Assembly: GCA_036227345.1 (NCBI GenBank)
Contig: CP109468.1
Span: 930,001 to 994,000, forward strand
DNA length: 64,000 nt
Direction of reading: 5' to 3'
Origin: Streptomyces sp. NBC_01463
Lineage (GTDB): Bacteria > Actinomycetota > Actinomycetes > Streptomycetales > Streptomycetaceae
Position numbers and translations under genes: made by a program. This document shows, piece after piece, positions 1,851 through 10,007 of this stretch. The first letter of the stretch is position 1, and every line of letters begins with the position of its first letter. Under the pieces are notes generated by a model. That model was not told where the DNA came from. It saw nothing but the letters and a program-made list of their open reading frames with translations, and did no database searches.

Positions 1851-3200
1851 CTACCGGTTGTCCTCGCGGTTCCTCAGCAACGTACGGATCTGCTGGACGA
1901 GTTCGTCGTCCTCGGACGCCGGCTTGGCGGACACCAGTGCGCCGAGGCGCTCGGCGGTCTGGAAGTCGTACGCCCGCTCCTCCTCGTCGCCGGGGACGTT
2001 GTCGTACTCCTCCCCGGCACGGAACCCGACGGTCAGGTCGACAACCTTGGCGATGAGCCAGGTGAGGATGAACGAGAAGGCGATGACCGAGACGATCGCG
2101 ACGAGCTGCTTGCCCAGCAGCCCCCAGCCGCCGCCGTAGAAGAGCCCCTTCTTGCCGCTGATGCGCGCGGTGGCGAAGAGCCCCACCATGATCAGGCCGA
2201 TCAGTCCGCCGACCCCGTGCACGCCCACCACGTCGAGCGTGTCGTCCACGTTGAAGCGGAACTTGAGCGTGACCGCGAAGGCGCACACCGCACCGACGAC
2301 GAGGCCGGTGATGACCGCGCCGAGCGTGTTGATCTCACCGCAGGCCGGGGTGATGGCGACCATGCCGGCGACTGCGGAGGAGACGACGCCCATGGTGGTG
2401 ACCCTGCCGGTGCGCCACTTCTCCACCAGCGGCCAGGTGACCATGGCTCCGGCGGCGCCGAGCTGGGTGTTGATGAAGGCCGCGGCGGCGGTCCCCTGGT
2501 CGGTCAGCGCGGAACCGGAGTTGAAGCCGAACCAGCCGAACCAGAGGAGACCCACACCGATGACGACGAGCGGAATGTTGTTGGGCCGCTCCTCGCGGCG
2601 GGCGAAGTCCCGCGGTGCGCGCAGGACGAGGGCGACGGCGAGTCCGGCGACGCCCGAGTTGAGCTCCACCGGCAGTCCGCCGGCGAAGTCCAGGGCCCCG
2701 AGGTGCTTCACGATCCAGCCGTCCGTGTCGAACACCCAGTGCGCGATGGGGATGTAGACGATCAGCAGCCACAGCACGACGAAGACGAGCCAGCCCCGCA
2801 TCGTGGCGCGGTCGGCGATCGAGCCGCTGACGAGGGCCACCGTGATGACGGCGAAGCCCATCTGGAAGGTGCTGTAGACGTACGTGGGGATCGCGCCGGT
2901 CAGCGTGTTCAGCTCGATGTCGTGCATGAACACGTGGTCGAGGTTGCCGATGATGCCGGCGCCTCCGACGTCGGGGCCGAACGCCAGCGTGTAGCCGATG
3001 ACCCACCAGACGAGCGTGCCGAAGGCCAGTGCGGCGAAGCTCATCTTGATCATCATGAGCACGTGCCGGGTGCGCACCATGCCGCCGTAGAAGAACGCGA
3101 GGCCGGGCGTCATCAGCAGCACCATGGCCGTGGACGCCAGCAGCCAGGCGGTGTCCCCGGAGTCGTACGCGGCCGGCATCGGCGCGGGAGCGGTGTTCAT
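1851..3200 (-). CDS. amt: Ammonium transporter, Amt family
   Basis: Membrane channel of 449 residues that conducts ammonium/ammonia. The protein opens with a TM segment (TAWLLASTAMVLLMTPGLAFFYGG), the classic first helix of Amt proteins, and shows 11 or so hydrophobic helices, the FNSGSAL stretch and the C-terminal signature with conserved histidine (DVVGVHGVGGLIG). The cytoplasmic tail is acidic (RAGEEYDNVPGDEEER). The ATG at 3200 follows GAGGT with good spacing. It is the last gene of the urea operon, 50 bp after ureD, so it may recapture ammonia produced by the urease. No glnK or glnD follows here, unlike the usual amtB-glnK-glnD locus, which suggests this is an additional, urea-linked transporter. 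Confidence 0.95.
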   Translation of the reverse strand: MNTAPAPMPAAYDSGDTAWLLASTAMVLLMTPGLAFFYGGMVRTRHVLMMIKMSFAALAFGTLVWWVIGYTLAFGPDVGGAGIIGNLDHVFMHDIELNTLTGAIPTYVYSTFQMGFAVITVALVSGSIADRATMRGWLVFVVLWLLIVYIPIAHWVFDTDGWIVKHLGALDFAGGLPVELNSGVAGLAVALVLRAPRDFARREERPNNIPLVVIGVGLLWFGWFGFNSGSALTDQGTAAAAFINTQLGAAGAMVTWPLVEKWRTGRVTTMGVVSSAVAGMVAITPACGEINTLGAVITGLVVGAVCAFAVTLKFRFNVDDTLDVVGVHGVGGLIGLIMVGLFATARISGKKGLFYGGGWGLLGKQLVAIVSVIAFSFILTWLIAKVVDLTVGFRAGEEYDNVPGDEEERAYDFQTAERLGALVSAKPASEDDELVQQIRTLLRNREDNR

Positions 3201-3250: not shown

Positions 3251-4210
3251 CTACGGTTTGCGCAGGTCGGGGGCCGGGTGCCCGGTGAGCAGGCGGCGGA
3301 CCGCCTGCCGGGCGGCCTCGTGCGCGGCGGCGACCCGGATCGGACTGTCGTCCAGCAGCCGTACCCAGGCGCCGCAGTCCCGGGGCAGGACGCTCACCCC
3401 GTACAGGACGCCGAGCCCGGCCAGCGCGTCGTGCAGGGTGTCGGCGATTTCGGTGGCGGGGACCCGGTCGGTCACCGCGAAGAGGGACGCGACATGGTCG
3501 TGGCCGGCGAACACCCCGGGACCGAGGGCCCCCTCGCCCTGCCGGCCGGGGACCAGACGCAGGGTGTCGACGGCGAGCAGGGTGCCGTCGGGGCGGCTGA
3601 TGTGCAGGTCGGTGGCGAGCACCCGGTAGGCGTGCCGTTCGCCGCGGGCGAGCCGTCCGGCGGTGACCGTCTCGCCGACGACGACGGTGGCGCCGGGTGC
3701 GACGGTCACCTCGGTGCGCTGGTAGAAGCGGGCGTCCTTGAACGGGATCAGCGGATCCGGCAGGTACTCGACGTAGCTCCCGGCCTCCGCCGTCAGATGC
3801 ACCCGCTGGCTCGCGTAGTCGTGCTCCATCCGGAAGACCTTGGTGGCGGCCTGGGTGGTCAGATGGACCTGGGTTTCCGGCCCGCAGCGGAAGTCCATCC
3901 GGTAGCGGTCCGCCTGGGCGATGCCGCCGCCGGTCGCCATCACGTAGACGTAGCTCATGCCGGGCAGTGCCGGGTCGATCCACAGCGGCCGCATGATCTG
4001 CAGCGGTGTCTTCTGGTAGCGCTCGACGAGTTCGGTGCGCCCGCCCCGTACGGCGAAGGCGAGGTCGAGGATGCCGACCTTGGCCGGCGAACCGGGGGCG
4101 AGGGTGTCCGGTACGGAGGCCAGGGCCGCCACGTCCGGGGGGACGCGGACCGCGGCGTAGTACTCCTCGGCGAGCCGGTCGGCGCGGGGCCGGTGCGGGG
4201 CGAGCGGCAT
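3251..4210 (-). CDS. ureD: Urease accessory protein UreD
   Basis: UreD/UreH scaffolds the urease apoprotein and, with UreF and UreG, delivers nickel to the active site. The 319-residue protein has the expected elements: a beta-rich core with LTTQAATKVFRM, the central YLPDPLIPFKDARFYQ segment and a GETVTAGRLARGE stretch. Start ATG at 4210 lies one base after the ureG stop codon, so the two are translationally coupled. In this operon UreD comes last of the accessory genes, before amt. The call is secure from motif and context. Confidence 0.95.
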   Translation of the reverse strand: MPLAPHRPRADRLAEEYYAAVRVPPDVAALASVPDTLAPGSPAKVGILDLAFAVRGGRTELVERYQKTPLQIMRPLWIDPALPGMSYVYVMATGGGIAQADRYRMDFRCGPETQVHLTTQAATKVFRMEHDYASQRVHLTAEAGSYVEYLPDPLIPFKDARFYQRTEVTVAPGATVVVGETVTAGRLARGERHAYRVLATDLHISRPDGTLLAVDTLRLVPGRQGEGALGPGVFAGHDHVASLFAVTDRVPATEIADTLHDALAGLGVLYGVSVLPRDCGAWVRLLDDSPIRVAAAHEAARQAVRRLLTGHPAPDLRKP

Positions 4211-4211
4211 G

Positions 4212-4832
4212 TCAGATCAGCACCTTGCGGCGCGATTCGAGGTAGACGGCGATGTCCTCGATCCCGACACCCGTGAGGCAGTCGGTGAGGACGACGGGCC
4301 GGTTGTCCCGCACCCGGTGCGCGTCCGACTCCATGACGTTGATGTCCGTGCGCACGTACTGCGCGATGTCGATCTTGTTGATGACCAGCAGGTCCGACTC
4401 GGTGATGCCGGGGCCGCGTTTACGGGGCATCTTCTCGCCCTCCGCGGTGTCCAGCACGAAGAGGAACAGGTCCACCAGGGCCGGGCTGAAGGTGAGCGTG
4501 AGGTTGTCGCCGCCGGACTCGTAGAGCAGCGTGTCCGTGTCCGGGTAGCGCTCCAGCATCTCCGCGCCGGCCGCCAGGTTCATCGTGGGGTCGTCGCGCA
4601 CGGCGGTGTGCGGGCAGGCCCCCGTCTCGACGCCGACGACCCGTCCGGGTTCCAGGACGCCGGCCAGGGTGCGGCGGACGTGCTGGGCGTCCTCCTGGGT
4701 GTAGATGTCGTTGGTGATGACGGCGGGGCGGTGGCCGCGTTCGATCAGCAGCGGGACCAGCGCCTCGATGAGCGCGGTCTTGCCGGATCCGACCGGTCCG
4801 CCGATGCCGACCCGCAGTACGTTGTCGTCCAT
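4212..4832 (-). CDS. ureG: Urease accessory GTPase UreG
   Basis: UreG couples GTP hydrolysis to nickel delivery to urease. It has 206 residues, normal for the family. The P-loop GPVGSGKT lies at residues 12-19, the nickel-binding Cys-Pro-His motif at 73-75, the switch region GGDNLT near 107, and the base-recognition motif NKID near 160. The N-terminus lacks the His-rich extension found in some UreG proteins. The ATG at 4832 is preceded by AGGAG five bases away. The ureF stop is 36 bp upstream. With no ureE gene visible, UreG must receive nickel from another donor; the His-rich protein at 7827-8663 is a candidate. Confidence 0.97.
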   Translation of the reverse strand: MDDNVLRVGIGGPVGSGKTALIEALVPLLIERGHRPAVITNDIYTQEDAQHVRRTLAGVLEPGRVVGVETGACPHTAVRDDPTMNLAAGAEMLERYPDTDTLLYESGGDNLTLTFSPALVDLFLFVLDTAEGEKMPRKRGPGITESDLLVINKIDIAQYVRTDINVMESDAHRVRDNRPVVLTDCLTGVGIEDIAVYLESRRKVLI

Positions 4833-4868: not shown

Positions 4869-5618
4869 TCAGCTCGCGAAGAGCCGGGCCTCGGCGCGCT
4901 CATGACGGCCCGACATGATGTCCGAGGCGAAGACGGTGGCGCCCACGTCGTCGAGTTCCCGCCGCAGCGCGGCCTCGGCGGTCTCCTCGATGACCGGCGC
5001 GGCACCCCGGATCAGGGTCTGGGCCGTGCGGTGGTCGGTCAGCCGCAGCCGCAGGGCGGCGCCCGCGAAGCTGACGCAGAACGCGAACAGGTCCGCCGCG
5101 ACGGCCTGCCGGACCGGTACCCGGGTGGCCGCGTAGATGACCCCCGCGGCCACCGCCTGGGTGCCGGGGGCCTCGCGGCGTACCACCCGGTCGAAGTAGT
5201 CGCCGATCTCGGGCCGGTCGAAGACCTCCCGGCCGAGGTCGAGGAGCTGACGGCCGGTCCGGGTGGCGGCCTGGCGCATCTCGCGGCCCAGTTTGGTGGC
5301 GAAGAGGTGCTCGTCGACGCGGACGGCGGCCGCCGGGTCGCCCGCCGCCGTCGCGCGGTGGGCGAGGGCCAGCGCGGTGGCGTCGGCGGGGCCGACGCCG
5401 TGCAGCAGCAGGTCCCTGAGCAGCAGCGGCAGGCTGTCCGGATCGACCGCCCCGGCCTGCGCGAAGCCCTCCAGGCTGTGCGACAGCGTGTAGAAGCCGC
5501 TCGGGAACGCCGAGTCGGTCAGCTGGAGGCTGACCAGCAGCGGCCCGAGTCCCGTTCCGGCCCCGGTCGTCGCGCCCGCGGTGTCTGCCGCCGGGGTGTC
5601 GCCCTCGTTGCGGTACAT
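4869..5618 (-). CDS. ureF: Urease accessory protein UreF
   Basis: UreF is the helical activator that joins UreD and UreG in the urease maturation complex. The 249-residue protein shows the family's start of fold, LTDSAFPSGFYTLSHSLEG (residues 32-50), and an all-alpha remainder ending RHERAEARLFAS. An Ala/Thr/Gly-rich N-terminal stretch of about 25 residues precedes the conserved core. The ATG at 5618 sits five bases after the ureC stop codon, implying coupled translation. An in-frame extension upstream overlaps ureC and is not real. Confidence 0.95.
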   Translation of the reverse strand: MYRNEGDTPAADTAGATTGAGTGLGPLLVSLQLTDSAFPSGFYTLSHSLEGFAQAGAVDPDSLPLLLRDLLLHGVGPADATALALAHRATAAGDPAAAVRVDEHLFATKLGREMRQAATRTGRQLLDLGREVFDRPEIGDYFDRVVRREAPGTQAVAAGVIYAATRVPVRQAVAADLFAFCVSFAGAALRLRLTDHRTAQTLIRGAAPVIEETAEAALRRELDDVGATVFASDIMSGRHERAEARLFAS

Positions 5619-5623
5619 CGGCC

Positions 5624-7348
5624 CTAGACCAGGAAGAACAGGTGGTTGAGGGGCAGCGTCTCGGCCGGGTCGATGGTGGCGACCTTGCCGTTGAGCGTGA
5701 CCCTGAACGTCTCCGGATCGACCTGGATGTCCGGCAGGGCGTCGTTGCGGACCATGTTGTGCTTGCCGATGGTGCGGGTGCGGCGCACCGGCAGGACCTG
5801 GCGCTCCAGGCCGAGTGCGGCCGGGACCCCGGCGGCGATGCCCGCCTGGGACATGAAGGTGGCGTGCGTCGCCTGCATCGCCCTGCCGTACTGGCCGAAC
5901 ATCGGCCGGTAGATGACGGGCTGCGGGGTCGGCAGCGAGGCGTTGGGGTCGCCCATCTGCGCCCACGAGATGATGCCGCCCTTGATCACCATCTTCGGCT
6001 TGGCGCCGAAGGAGTGGATGGGCCAGAGCACGATGTCGGCGAGCTTGCCCTTCTCGATCGATCCGACGTGGTCGGAGATCCCGGAGGCGATCGCCGGGTT
6101 GATGGTGACCTTGGCGAGGTAGCGCAGCACCCGCTGGTTGTCGTTGCGGGCCGAGTCGCCCTCCAGCGTGCCGAGTTTGTCCTTGCAGTGGTGCGCGGTC
6201 TGGAAGGCCCGGGTGACGGACTCGCCGATCCGGCCCATGGCCTGGGAGTCGGAGGAGAAGATGCTGATCACGCCGAGGTCGTGCAGCACCGACTCGGCGG
6301 CGATCGTCTCGGCCCGGACCCGGCTGTCGGCGAAGGAGACGTCCTCGGGGATGTCATGGCTGAGGTGGTGGCAGACCATGACCATGTCGAGGAGCTCGTC
6401 CACCGAGTTCTTGGTGTACGGCAGCGTCGGGTTGGTGGAGGACGGCAGGACGTTCGGCTCACCGGCGATGCGCAGGATGTCGGGGGCGTGGCCGCCGCCC
6501 GCGCCCTCGCTGTGGAAGGTGTGGATGGCCCGGCCGTCGATCGCGGAGCGGGTGTCCTCGAAGAAGCCGCTCTCGTTCAGGCTGTCGGTGTGGATGGAGA
6601 CCTGGACGTCGTACGCGTCGGCGACGTTCAGCGCGTTGTCGATGACGGCCGGCGTGGCGCCCCAGTCCTCGTGCACCTTGAGCCCGCAGGCACCGGCCAC
6701 CACCTGCTCGTTGAGCGCCTCCGGCAGGCTGCCGTTGCCCTTGCCCATGATGCCGAGGTTGACCGGCATGCTCTCAGCGGCCTGGAGCAGCTTGCCGATG
6801 TTGTACGGGCCGGGGGTGCAGGTGGTGCCGTTGGACCCGTCCGAGGGACCGGTGCCACCTCCGATGAGGGTGGTGATGCCGTTGGTCAGCGCCTGCTCGG
6901 CCTGTTGCGGGGCGATCAGGTGGACGTGGGTGTCGATCGCGCCGGCGGTGGCGATGAGGTGTTCGCCCGCGATGGCCTCCGTGCCCGGGCCGATGACCAG
7001 GTCCGGGTCGACGTTGTTCTGCGTCTGCGGGTTGCCGGACTTGCCGATGCCGACGATGAAGCCGTCCTTGATGCCGATGTCGCACTTGACGATGCCCACC
7101 ATCGGGTCGATGACCACGACGTTGGTGATGACGGTGTCGAGCGCGCCCTGGGCGGCGGTGGCCTGCGGGTCGGCCGCCATGCCGTCGCGCATGGTCTTGC
7201 CGCCGCCGTAGACGACCTCGTCGCCGTACAGGCCCTCGCTGTAGTCCTTCTCGACCTCGACGACGAGGTTCGTGTCGGCGAGGTGGAAGCGGTCGCCGAC
7301 CGTGGGGCCGAACATGTCGGTGTACTGCTTGCGCGGCAGGATGGGCAT
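5624..7348 (-). CDS. ureC: Urease alpha subunit UreC
   Basis: The catalytic subunit hydrolyses urea to ammonia and carbamate in the cytoplasm using two nickel ions. It has 574 residues, the normal bacterial length. All metal ligands are visible: His141 and His143 in THVH, the carbamylated Lys224 in GLKVHEDWG, His253, His279 in [10 protein letters not shown], and Asp367 in SSDSQAMGR. The mobile flap with its cysteine and histidines ([13 protein letters not shown]) spans about 323-335. The ATG at 7348 overlaps the ureB stop codon (TGATG), a tight coupling that fits the fixed subunit ratio. Confidence 0.98.
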
Positions 7349-7830
7349 CAGCGCGAACCCTTCTTCTTTTCCTTGGTGGCCTTCGAAGCCGCTGCGGACT
7401 TGGATCCCTTGGCGGGAGCCTTCGGCCCCTTGGCGGGAGGCTTGGCACCGGGGGTGTTCTGCGCGCCCTGGAATCCCTGCTCGATGGCCTTGCGGACGGC
7501 CTCGACGCGGGCGGGGTGGGAGGCGAGGCTGCCGTTCAGCAGGCCGCTGAAGCCGACGAGACGGCCGGTGCCGGCGTACGCGCACAGCTCCACCTCGCGC
7601 GAGCCGCCGGGCTCGAACCGCACGGAGGTGCCGGCGGCGATGTTGAGGTGCATGCCGAGCGTCTCCTGGCGGTCGAACGACAGCGCCGAGTTGACCTCGA
7701 AGAAGTGGTAGTGGGAACCGACCTGCACGGCACGGTCACCGGTGTTGCTCACGGTGAGCTTCAGCGTGCGGCGGCCCGCGTTCAGCTCGATGGGGTCCTT
7801 GCCGTACAGATACTTCTGACGGAACGTCAT
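7348..7830 (-). CDS. ureB: Urease beta subunit UreB with lysine-rich tail
   Basis: UreB is a structural subunit of the urease complex. Residues 1-105 match the family ([33 protein letters not shown]). At 160 residues the protein is about 50 longer than typical stand-alone UreB. Residues 128-160 form a disordered Lys/Ala/Pro-rich tail ([17 protein letters not shown], then KEKKKGSR) with ten lysines, resembling the tails of bacterial histone-H1-like proteins. The start ATG at 7830 overlaps the stop codon of the upstream chelatase-like gene (ATGA). Function of the tail is unknown. Confidence 0.96.
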
Positions 7831-8663
7831 GCGATGCTCCTGACGACTGGGTCCGCGCCGGGGGCTGCGGACGGGTGGTGGTGCGGATGCCCGGTGCCGT
7901 GCTCGTGGGGGTGCGCGTGGTCGTGCCCCTCGCCCGGTGGGTGGGTGTGGGAGTGCCCATGGTTCTCGGCCGCGGTCAGCCCGGTCGCGATGCCGTCGTC
8001 GCCGTGTTCGTGCCACCGTCGCCGGGCGTCGGCGACGCGCTCGGCCAGTACGCGTCGCAGCGCGGACGCCGGTACGAGCGGACCGGCCGGCTCGACCGGC
8101 AGCGCGCCCTCCTCGGGCACCTGGGGCAGCGCGAACGCGGCCGGGAGCAGCGTCACCCGCTCCGCGCCGAGCAGCCGGCACCGCCGCACGCCCTCGGCCG
8201 GGTCCGGGTCTCCCCCGGTGAACGCCACCTCGACGAGTCCGCGCCGGCCGTAGCGGCGTACCAGTGCGGCGATCCGGTACAGCTCGGCGTCCTCGAACGG
8301 ATCGCCCGACGGGGCGGTGAGCAGCAGCGCGCAGGACTCGGGCACCCGGCCGGCCGCCGCCCGCAGCCAGCCGGTCAGGTGCTGGGCGGTGCCGAACGGC
8401 TCGGCGAGCACGGTGGTGCCGCGCTCGGCCGCGGGTACGGCACGCAGCGTCCGGGCGGTGTCCGCGACGAGTTCGGGATCGCGGCCGAGCGTCATGGGGA
8501 CGACGACGGTCTCCTCGCCCCGGCGCCCGTGCGCGGTGACGCTCCGGAACAGCTCGCGCCCGTTCGACACGACGTCGACGCCGGCGTCGAGGACCCCGTC
8601 GAGCGCCCGCCCGTGGGCGGCCTCGTGGCCGCACACGGCGACGACGGCACAGTGCTCGGCCAC
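7827..8663 (-). CDS. CbiX/sirohydrochlorin-chelatase-like protein with His-rich tail, inserted between ureA and ureB
   Basis: The 278-residue protein resembles the CbiX/SirB chelatase fold: an N-terminal strand and loop with histidines ([15 protein letters not shown]), a central [21 protein letters not shown], and a repeated alpha/beta half ([22 protein letters not shown]). The second active-site histidine usual in CbiX (position of GYH in VPLLLSAGYH-type motifs) is not seen. The C-terminal 60 residues are extremely His-rich ([20 protein letters not shown] followed by [10 protein letters not shown]), as in metal-storage tails of UreE. The GTG start at 8663 is five bases after the ureA stop, and its TGA overlaps the ureB ATG. 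No ureE is seen in the operon, so a nickel-handling role is inferred; the substrate is unproven. Confidence 0.8.
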
Positions 8664-8667
8664 GGGT

Positions 8668-8973
8668 TCAGCCGCCGATGGGGTCGTGGCAGGACACAAG
8701 CTTGGTCCCGTCCACGAAGGACGCCTCGACCTGCAGCAGGCCGAGCATCTCCCGTACCCCGTCCATGGTGTCGGCCTCGCCCACGACATGGCGGCCCAGT
8801 TCCATGCAGTCCGCGACGGTCCTGCCGTCGCGGGCCGCCTCGAGGATCGCCTCCGTGATCAGCGCGACCGACTCGCTGTAATTGAGCTTGAGACCGCGGT
8901 CCTGGCGCTTGCGGGCCAGGTCGGCCACGACGTAGACGAGCAGTTTGTCGATCTCGCGAGGTGCGAGGTTCAT
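8668..8973 (-). CDS. ureA: Urease gamma subunit UreA
   Basis: Smallest urease structural subunit, 101 residues, close to the family norm. The sequence is a textbook match: [31 protein letters not shown], and the C-terminal [12 protein letters not shown]. The ATG at 8973 follows GAGGAAGG. The gene lies 59 bp after the urea transporter and five bases before the chelatase-like gene. ureA and ureB are separate here, not fused as in some other Streptomyces urease loci. Confidence 0.97.
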
Positions 8974-9032: not shown

Positions 9033-10007
9033 TCATTCGCTCCGGCGCAGGCGGGGCAACAGGGGTACGGCCGCCATCAGCACCCAGGTGGTGAGAATGA
9101 ACGGCCAGGTGAAGGTGTGGCCGCCGAACGGTTTGAAGAAGGACGTCAGCGACGCGGTGAGGCCGGTGGTGGCCGCAGCGCCGAACAGGGCGTAGACCCC
9201 GGTCCAGACGGTGTTGGCCATGAACACGGCGCCGATGGCGATCGCGACGAGCACCGCGTTGTATCCGTAGATGCCGTTGGCGATCAGCTCCGTCGGCGCG
9301 CCCAGCAGCCACGCGGCGGCGATCCCGGCCGCGCTGCCGGCGGCCGCGTAGAGCACGACGCGCAGGCCGGCCAGCGCGAGGCCGACGAGCATGATCAGGC
9401 CGACGTACCAGCTCTCGACCAGGAAGATCTGGGAGACGTTGTTGAAGAACGCGTGCCACAGCGCATCCCACGACCACGCGGTGTCGCCGGTCGTGGTGCT
9501 CGACACGGCGGCCGGCGCGCCGTGCCAGACGCGGGCGAAGGACGGGGCGCCGACCACCATGACGCCGGAGACCAGGCAGAAGGGCGCGGTCAGCGGGGTG
9601 AGGCCGTACGGCGCGAGGAAGGTGCCGAGGGCCGCCATCAGCAGGGTGCACATGATGGCGCCCACGACGGTCAGCACATAGGTGGCGGGGTGGTTGCCGA
9701 GTGAGGAGACGAGGGCGATGCCGGTCAGACAGCCCGCGTACCCCTGGAGTCCGAGGGCGATGCTCCCCCGGTCGACGGCCAGCGCGCAGGCGGTGGCCGT
9801 GGCGATCAGGGTGCCCAGGGTGGCGAACAGGCCCGTCTCCCACCCCGCCGCCCAGAGTCCGGCGAGGATGAACGCGCCGGTCGCCAGGCCGGGCTGGAGG
9901 TCGACCTGGCCCACGCCGCGCAGCGAGGCCAGCAGGTAGGCGGACGGGCGGCGGCGCTCCAGCCGCCGGACGATGTCCGGCTCGGCGAGGGGCAAGGCGT
10001 GCTCCAA
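9033..10007 (-). CDS. Urea transporter, UT family
   Basis: Channel-type urea permease of about 324 residues with roughly ten TM helices. The sequence holds the family's repeated pore motifs ([15 protein letters not shown] and [17 protein letters not shown]) and the ESWYVGL stretch. It is the first gene of the urea operon and supplies the substrate. The in-frame start is uncertain: reading begins at a TTG (10007) with a poor ribosome site, while an ATG at 10054 with an excellent site (GGCAGGAG at 10069-10062) is out of frame by one base. A base gained or lost in the C-rich run near 10024 would fuse them. Either the TTG is used or the sequence holds an indel. Confidence 0.88.

Follow-up and report, generated by a model that had tools for sequence, protein, structure and literature searches.

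How does a urease acquire its nickel when its operon holds neither a recognisable ureE nor a UreG with a histidine stretch? The question is posed by a urease operon in a 64,000-nucleotide stretch of Streptomyces sp. NBC_01463 (contig CP109468.1, positions 930,001 to 994,000), referred to here as the window, in which an additional gene, here called X, lies between ureA and ureB. X (7827..8663; like all window features given below, on the minus strand) begins with GTG and runs uninterrupted through 278 codons to its stop, encoding a His-tailed protein of 278 amino acids for which AlphaFold2 predicts a class II chelatase fold. The first-pass annotation had taken X for a real gene sharing an ATGA overlap with ureB, which we confirm, the interval from the ureA stop to the X start being 4 bases rather than five. 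We propose, with a probability of roughly 0.6, that X carries or buffers nickel for urease maturation and derives from a CbiX-type cobalt chelatase. We take it for a probable nickel carrier that has not been described before; no account of it was found in the open-licence full text that was searched, and the available portions of PMC2667541 and PMC4531530 make no mention of it.

The AlphaFold2 model is confident, bears out the CbiX/SirB-like fold suggested in the first-pass annotation, and matched chelatases in a fold search; no UreE was among the matches listed, in a search that was not a test of UreE likeness. The chelatase-fold core comprises residues 1-226 (7986..8663). Against Pfam, at E values up to 0.1, X matches CbiX alone, with 18.9 bits where the curated cut-off is 22, and does not match the UreE_N domain (PF02814); a search of solved structures by sequence returned chance matches only, with no chelatase. 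X shares with CbiX-L and SirB the bilobal fold and, usually, the first catalytic histidine, with which hhalign aligns His13 (codon 8625..8627); this residue is kept in 72 of 78 urease-linked X sequences and replaced by R, Y or P in three. Like CbiX-L, X also has a His-rich C-terminal region. It differs from both, however, in the second catalytic histidine: at the aligned position 69 of the 78 sequences have E, R, G, K or A, so that the earlier failure to see this residue is borne out in at least 69; a nearby column, 62, is histidine in one linked sequence. X has no pair of catalytic histidines in one lobe, the HGS/TR motif is absent, and no CxxC, the Fe-S cysteine motif before the tail, occurs in its 278 residues. 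Given these losses, it is very improbable that X is an active tetrapyrrole chelatase, for sirohaem, cobalamin or a nickel tetrapyrrole, located beside urease by chance, even with the fold and first histidine in place: three CbiX/SirB proteins with both catalytic histidines are encoded outside the X locus in the same genome, and no tetrapyrrole gene is found among the named operon neighbours. X is also unlike CfbA, the F430 nickel chelatase, which is small, has a symmetrical active site of histidine pairs and acts on sirohydrochlorin.

Six residues of X, R36, G60, R61, H95, R101 and D125, are each invariant in all 78 linked sequences. The tail lies at residues 235-263 (7875..7961, 13 histidines), is modelled with low confidence and is probably disordered. 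X has 20 histidines in total, 14 of them (some 18 in the first-pass annotation) within the last 60 residues, a concentration with P = 1.7e-6, and the median number after residue 232 is 15 among the 78 linked sequences. Two homologues from a single genus, L247 (1601-2335) and L248 (about 1647-2252), have no urease gene within the fetched stretch; neither has a His tail, and both have Gln at the position of His95 (codon 8379..8381; His in 78/78 linked sequences vs 0/2 unlinked). To judge from these sequences, which represent one lineage, the tail and His95 would be tied to a urease role. Ordinary CbiX proteins of the genus (L001, from the same genome, and L022) carry a MNCDSC motif and a His-rich tail, and proteins of this type are a likely model for the ancestor of X.

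How constant is the association with urease? We sampled 150 genomes of the genus, 394 of the class and 200 of the family Streptomycetaceae. In the genus, X has matches at E 0.001 in 33 of 150 genomes, strong in 13 genomes (14 copies) and weak in 20; in the class, 50 of 394 genomes match at E 1e-6, of which five, across three families, are strong. The 20 weak genus genomes and 45 class genomes (E 7e-13 or worse) were taken as ordinary CbiX/SirB; L022 is the one among these that was read, and L099 was checked for urease neighbours, with none found. The order ureA-X-ureB occurs in 26/26 loci that have both flanks present (at least one pair being from the same species), with the 4-base X/ureB overlap in 21 of these, and six further X loci end at a contig edge with ureA adjacent. 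The three strong class loci outside the genus, from two other families, have the same order (3/3), as do 44 of the 46 family loci outside the genus (44 genomes); within the family, 46 of 200 genomes, in 7 of 17 genera, match X. Taken together, these loci put X between ureA and ureB in four or more families, the Speluncibacteraceae (L058) among them. Names of its relatives in protein listings, whose contexts were not checked for each, extend to Kitasatospora, Nocardioides, Streptosporangium, Cellulomonas, Georgenia, Mumia and Amycolatopsis. A match in Omnitrophota (L059) was rejected, since it covers residues 235-256 of X only.

Such strict linkage, an unusual place between two small structural genes and the recurrent 4-base overlap might point to a scaffold or regulatory factor that assembles UreA, UreB and UreC, with the tail of secondary importance. 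We consider this distinctly unlikely, because it does not predict the exchange with a His-rich UreG that is seen in three X-less operons of the same clade, described below.

Like ureE, X belongs to a urease operon and encodes a C-terminal tail rich in histidine, but it shows no match to a UreE domain. UreE has another fold, and ureE usually follows ureC. That no ureE is visible, as first noted, is true genome-wide for UreE_N (PF02814), the UreE_C domain and HypA/HypB not having been searched. The first-pass interpretation is supported in part, by the chelatase fold without an intact active site, the tail, the locked position in several actinobacterial families and the lack of a UreE_N match. 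The suggestion that X takes the place of UreE has to be reframed in the light of the survey of operons, in which the ureA-X-ureB arrangement is nearly constant but the absence of ureE proves ordinary, UreE_N having no match in any of the 150 genus genomes. The genome has four urease gamma genes, and the three X-less ureases are likewise without UreE; the absence of UreE is thus not special to the X operon. UreE is not the actinobacterial norm either, and that idea was rejected: at E 0.001, only eight of the 394 genomes of the class have a UreE_N match (seven above the cut-off), none of them among the five strong-X genomes, and it has no match in genomes G452, G464 and G521. A fourth urease of the genome, near C1:2655244 (L100, 5176-7538), has ureA, ureB and ureC, and no match to the ureD, ureF or ureG of the window was found within the 14 kb fetched.

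The X operon does stand out in its UreG: elsewhere the absence of UreE goes with a His stretch on this protein, and here that stretch is missing as well. Haas and colleagues (PMC2770081) reported that His stretches in UreG go with the absence of ureE, including in S. coelicolor and S. avermitilis; two genomes, those of Bradyrhizobium japonicum and Frankia CcI3, depart from this, and for them HypB was put forward. In that arrangement (Mycobacterium, S. coelicolor and S. avermitilis in Table 1 of PMC2770081) a His stretch likewise serves urease maturation without UreE, but it is part of the GTPase, whereas in X operons it is found on a separate chelatase-fold protein. We compared 83 operons (32 with X, three with UreE and 48 with neither; the 40 class operons were approximately every third listed row), scoring a stretch where two or more histidines precede the UreG P-loop, counted from either the nearest or the farthest start. 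Among X operons a stretch is found in 0/32 by the nearest start and in 1/32 by the farthest (L042), and in UreE operons in 0/3, whereas operons with neither have one in 41/48 by the farthest start, 38/48 by the nearest ATG and 44/48 when the C-terminal tail is included. The UreG of the window, beginning MDDNVLRVGIGG, is not His-rich, while that of L097, an X-less operon of the same genome, starts MHLDHSHPG. When the family loci are added, the number of X operons lacking a stretch is 74 of 76 with the nearest start and 72 of 76 with the farthest; L229 and L232 are exceptions by both and L042 and L203 by the farthest alone. Because of conserved GTG starts, the stretches in L229 and L232 are likely artefacts, though they are counted as exceptions. 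X operons are thus a large set of further exceptions to the rule set out in PMC2770081, and the operon pattern is complementary, with Fisher P = 2.4e-14 in the comparison of 83 operons.

Some details of these counts should be noted. A start-free count of histidines over the 45 codons preceding the P-loop gives poor separation of the groups (X 18/32, other operons 42/45, same clade without X 3/3, UreE 1/3); it reads non-coding sequence in operons with a short UreG, and we therefore used the start-based counts. Eight loci with ureC but no ureG match, L162 (no P-loop) and four duplicates were left out of the 83; the enlarged set further excludes L212, whose UreG is out of frame, L247 and L248, which have no ureG, and three duplicates. 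L109 was assigned to the X group by hand, X being on another contig of the same genome. L166, L167, L168 and L171 are operons without X, UreE or, by the start-based rule, a UreG His stretch; in L167, L168 and L171, upstream alternative starts would bring in histidines.

The X operons belong to one urease clade. ureC is present at E 1e-50 in 141 of 150 genus genomes; 17 copies share 76% identity or more with that of the window, and the others listed reach no more than 61%. X accompanies 14 of these 17 (in G130 on another contig) and has no strong match elsewhere in the 150 genomes. In the class, ureC occurs in 168 of 394 genomes, and the five copies at 70% identity or above are those of the five strong-X genomes. 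Both a ureC tree (82 rows) and a five-protein tree (22 rows) place all included X operons in one clade with L131-L133, three operons in which X is absent and ureA and ureB are nearly adjacent. In these three, UreG starts MHDPTQVKGSHHHDHD or similar and has the stretches HHHDHD, HHHSHDD and HHHHDD.

These observations lead us to a model in which a B12 cobalt chelatase has become a dedicated nickel chaperone of actinobacterial ureases. This would add a third route to UreE and His-rich UreG, its nickel site built around His95 on the old scaffold and the tail-bearing protein interchangeable with the UreG His stretch in evolution; in this full form the balance for and against is about even. Most likely, an ancestral His-tailed CbiX would have been copied into a urease operon, the copy then losing its second catalytic histidine and HGS/TR motif and retaining the His tail, which would act as an antenna for nickel. 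Together with a core site around the invariant His95, this tail would collect Ni(II), which X could pass to UreG, its presumed partner, or to UreG-UreF-UreD on apo-urease, so taking on the job done elsewhere by UreE or a His-rich UreG extension. There is precedent for parts of this scheme in the accounts available: CbiX-L can insert cobalt without its C-terminal region, which includes a His-rich stretch and has been proposed to serve in metal storage and delivery (PMC7689651), and in Helicobacter pylori nickel is transferred from UreE to UreG (PMC7055735). The UreG proteins of the three UreE operons, like those of X operons, have no His stretch.

Could X instead store nickel or buffer it for detoxification, its synthesis following that of urease, and release Ni(II) to the cytosol with no docking to UreG? 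Low-complexity tails of varying length would suit storage, tight coupling to ureA and ureB would scale X with the enzyme, and storage has been proposed for the tail region of CbiX-L (PMC7689651). A pure store needs no conserved core, however, and R36, G60, R61, H95, R101 and D125 are invariant far from the tail; nor would storage by itself explain the missing UreG stretch. We regard it as possible but doubtful.

Several points weigh against the proposal that X carries nickel to urease. Its nickel binding and delivery, and any urease phenotype, are predictions from sequence. X is absent from the stretches around the three other ureases of its own genome. The tail varies in length, and L235, L245, L227 and L224, read as intact, have only 5-7 histidines after residue 232; in Klebsiella the His tail of UreE is not needed in vivo (PMC7055735), and the core site of X may therefore matter more than its tail. 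Seven of the 48 operons with neither X nor UreE lack an N-terminal UreG stretch, and four still do once the C-terminal tail is included. The Fisher value overstates the pattern, since the operons are related and yield one independent evolutionary contrast on supported branches and two on all branches, where six or more concordant ones would be needed to reach significance; the trend agrees with the prediction yet is evolutionarily thin. L131-L133 fall inside the X clade, but X operons as a single clade are not rejected (approximately unbiased test, p-AU 0.42), so that loss of X in these three is not certain. Finally, no search was made here for HypB, which PMC2770081 proposes for the two exceptions it lists.

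The last points would also suit X as a hitchhiker with no nickel role, the UreG pattern reflecting shared ancestry and nickel arriving by, for example, HypA/HypB (not searched for): only one or at most two contrasts are independent, X is missing from three close operons, and HypB is the published proposal where UreE and the UreG stretch are both absent (PMC2770081). It is hardly credible, nevertheless, that a passenger would hold its place between ureA and ureB across four or more families with its core residues invariant, when X outside the urease operon has lost both the tail and His95.

Urease is a model for the loading of nickel into enzymes, and X, read as a nickel carrier, is a candidate explanation for the exception that its operons make to the UreE/UreG rule. 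If this is correct, the chelatase scaffold is able to give rise to a metallochaperone, and the names sirohydrochlorin chelatase or CbiX would be wrong for many of the proteins that bear them (there are 373 matches at E 0.001 or better, not all of them checked).

In the window operon, the urease genes and the urea transporter all score above Pfam cut-offs. In order of transcription the genes are a urea transporter (9033..9995; PF03253, E 1.4e-81), ureA (urease gamma, 8668..8973; PF00547, E 1.7e-40), X, ureB (urease beta, 7348..7830, with the ATGA overlap; PF00699, E 7.2e-40), ureC (urease alpha, 5624..7348; TIGR01792, 893.8 bits, cut-off 680), ureF (4869..5618, start inferred; PF01730, E 2.2e-33 over 4869-5546), ureG (4212..4832, N-terminus MDDNVLRVGIGGPVGSGKT, without a His stretch; TIGR00101, 245.3 bits, cut-off 204.2), ureD (3251..4210; PF01774, E 2.4e-53) and a gene with an inferred start (1851..3200). 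From its sequence, this last is probably ammonium-transporter-like; a homologue also follows ureD in many related loci. UreB continues for about 60 residues past its beta domain, which ends near residue 100, to a Lys/Ala-rich end (7351-7530).

X operons also occur on plasmids. The Streptomyces plasmid NZ_CP108509.1 carries one from the urea transporter through the ammonium-transporter-like gene, and the Embleya sp. NBC_00896 plasmid NZ_CP108777.1 (L254) has X, ureB and a fragment of the urea transporter, with no ureA or ureC match in the fetched stretch; it is perhaps a decaying operon. Long open frames in L242 and L246 had suggested an X-UreC fusion, which we reject because ureB sits between the two in a different frame. 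In L240 and L246 the His tail of X is seemingly out of frame, in L242 X has no stop before ureB, and in L212 UreG is out of frame; these breaks are either real slippage in repeats or assembly errors.
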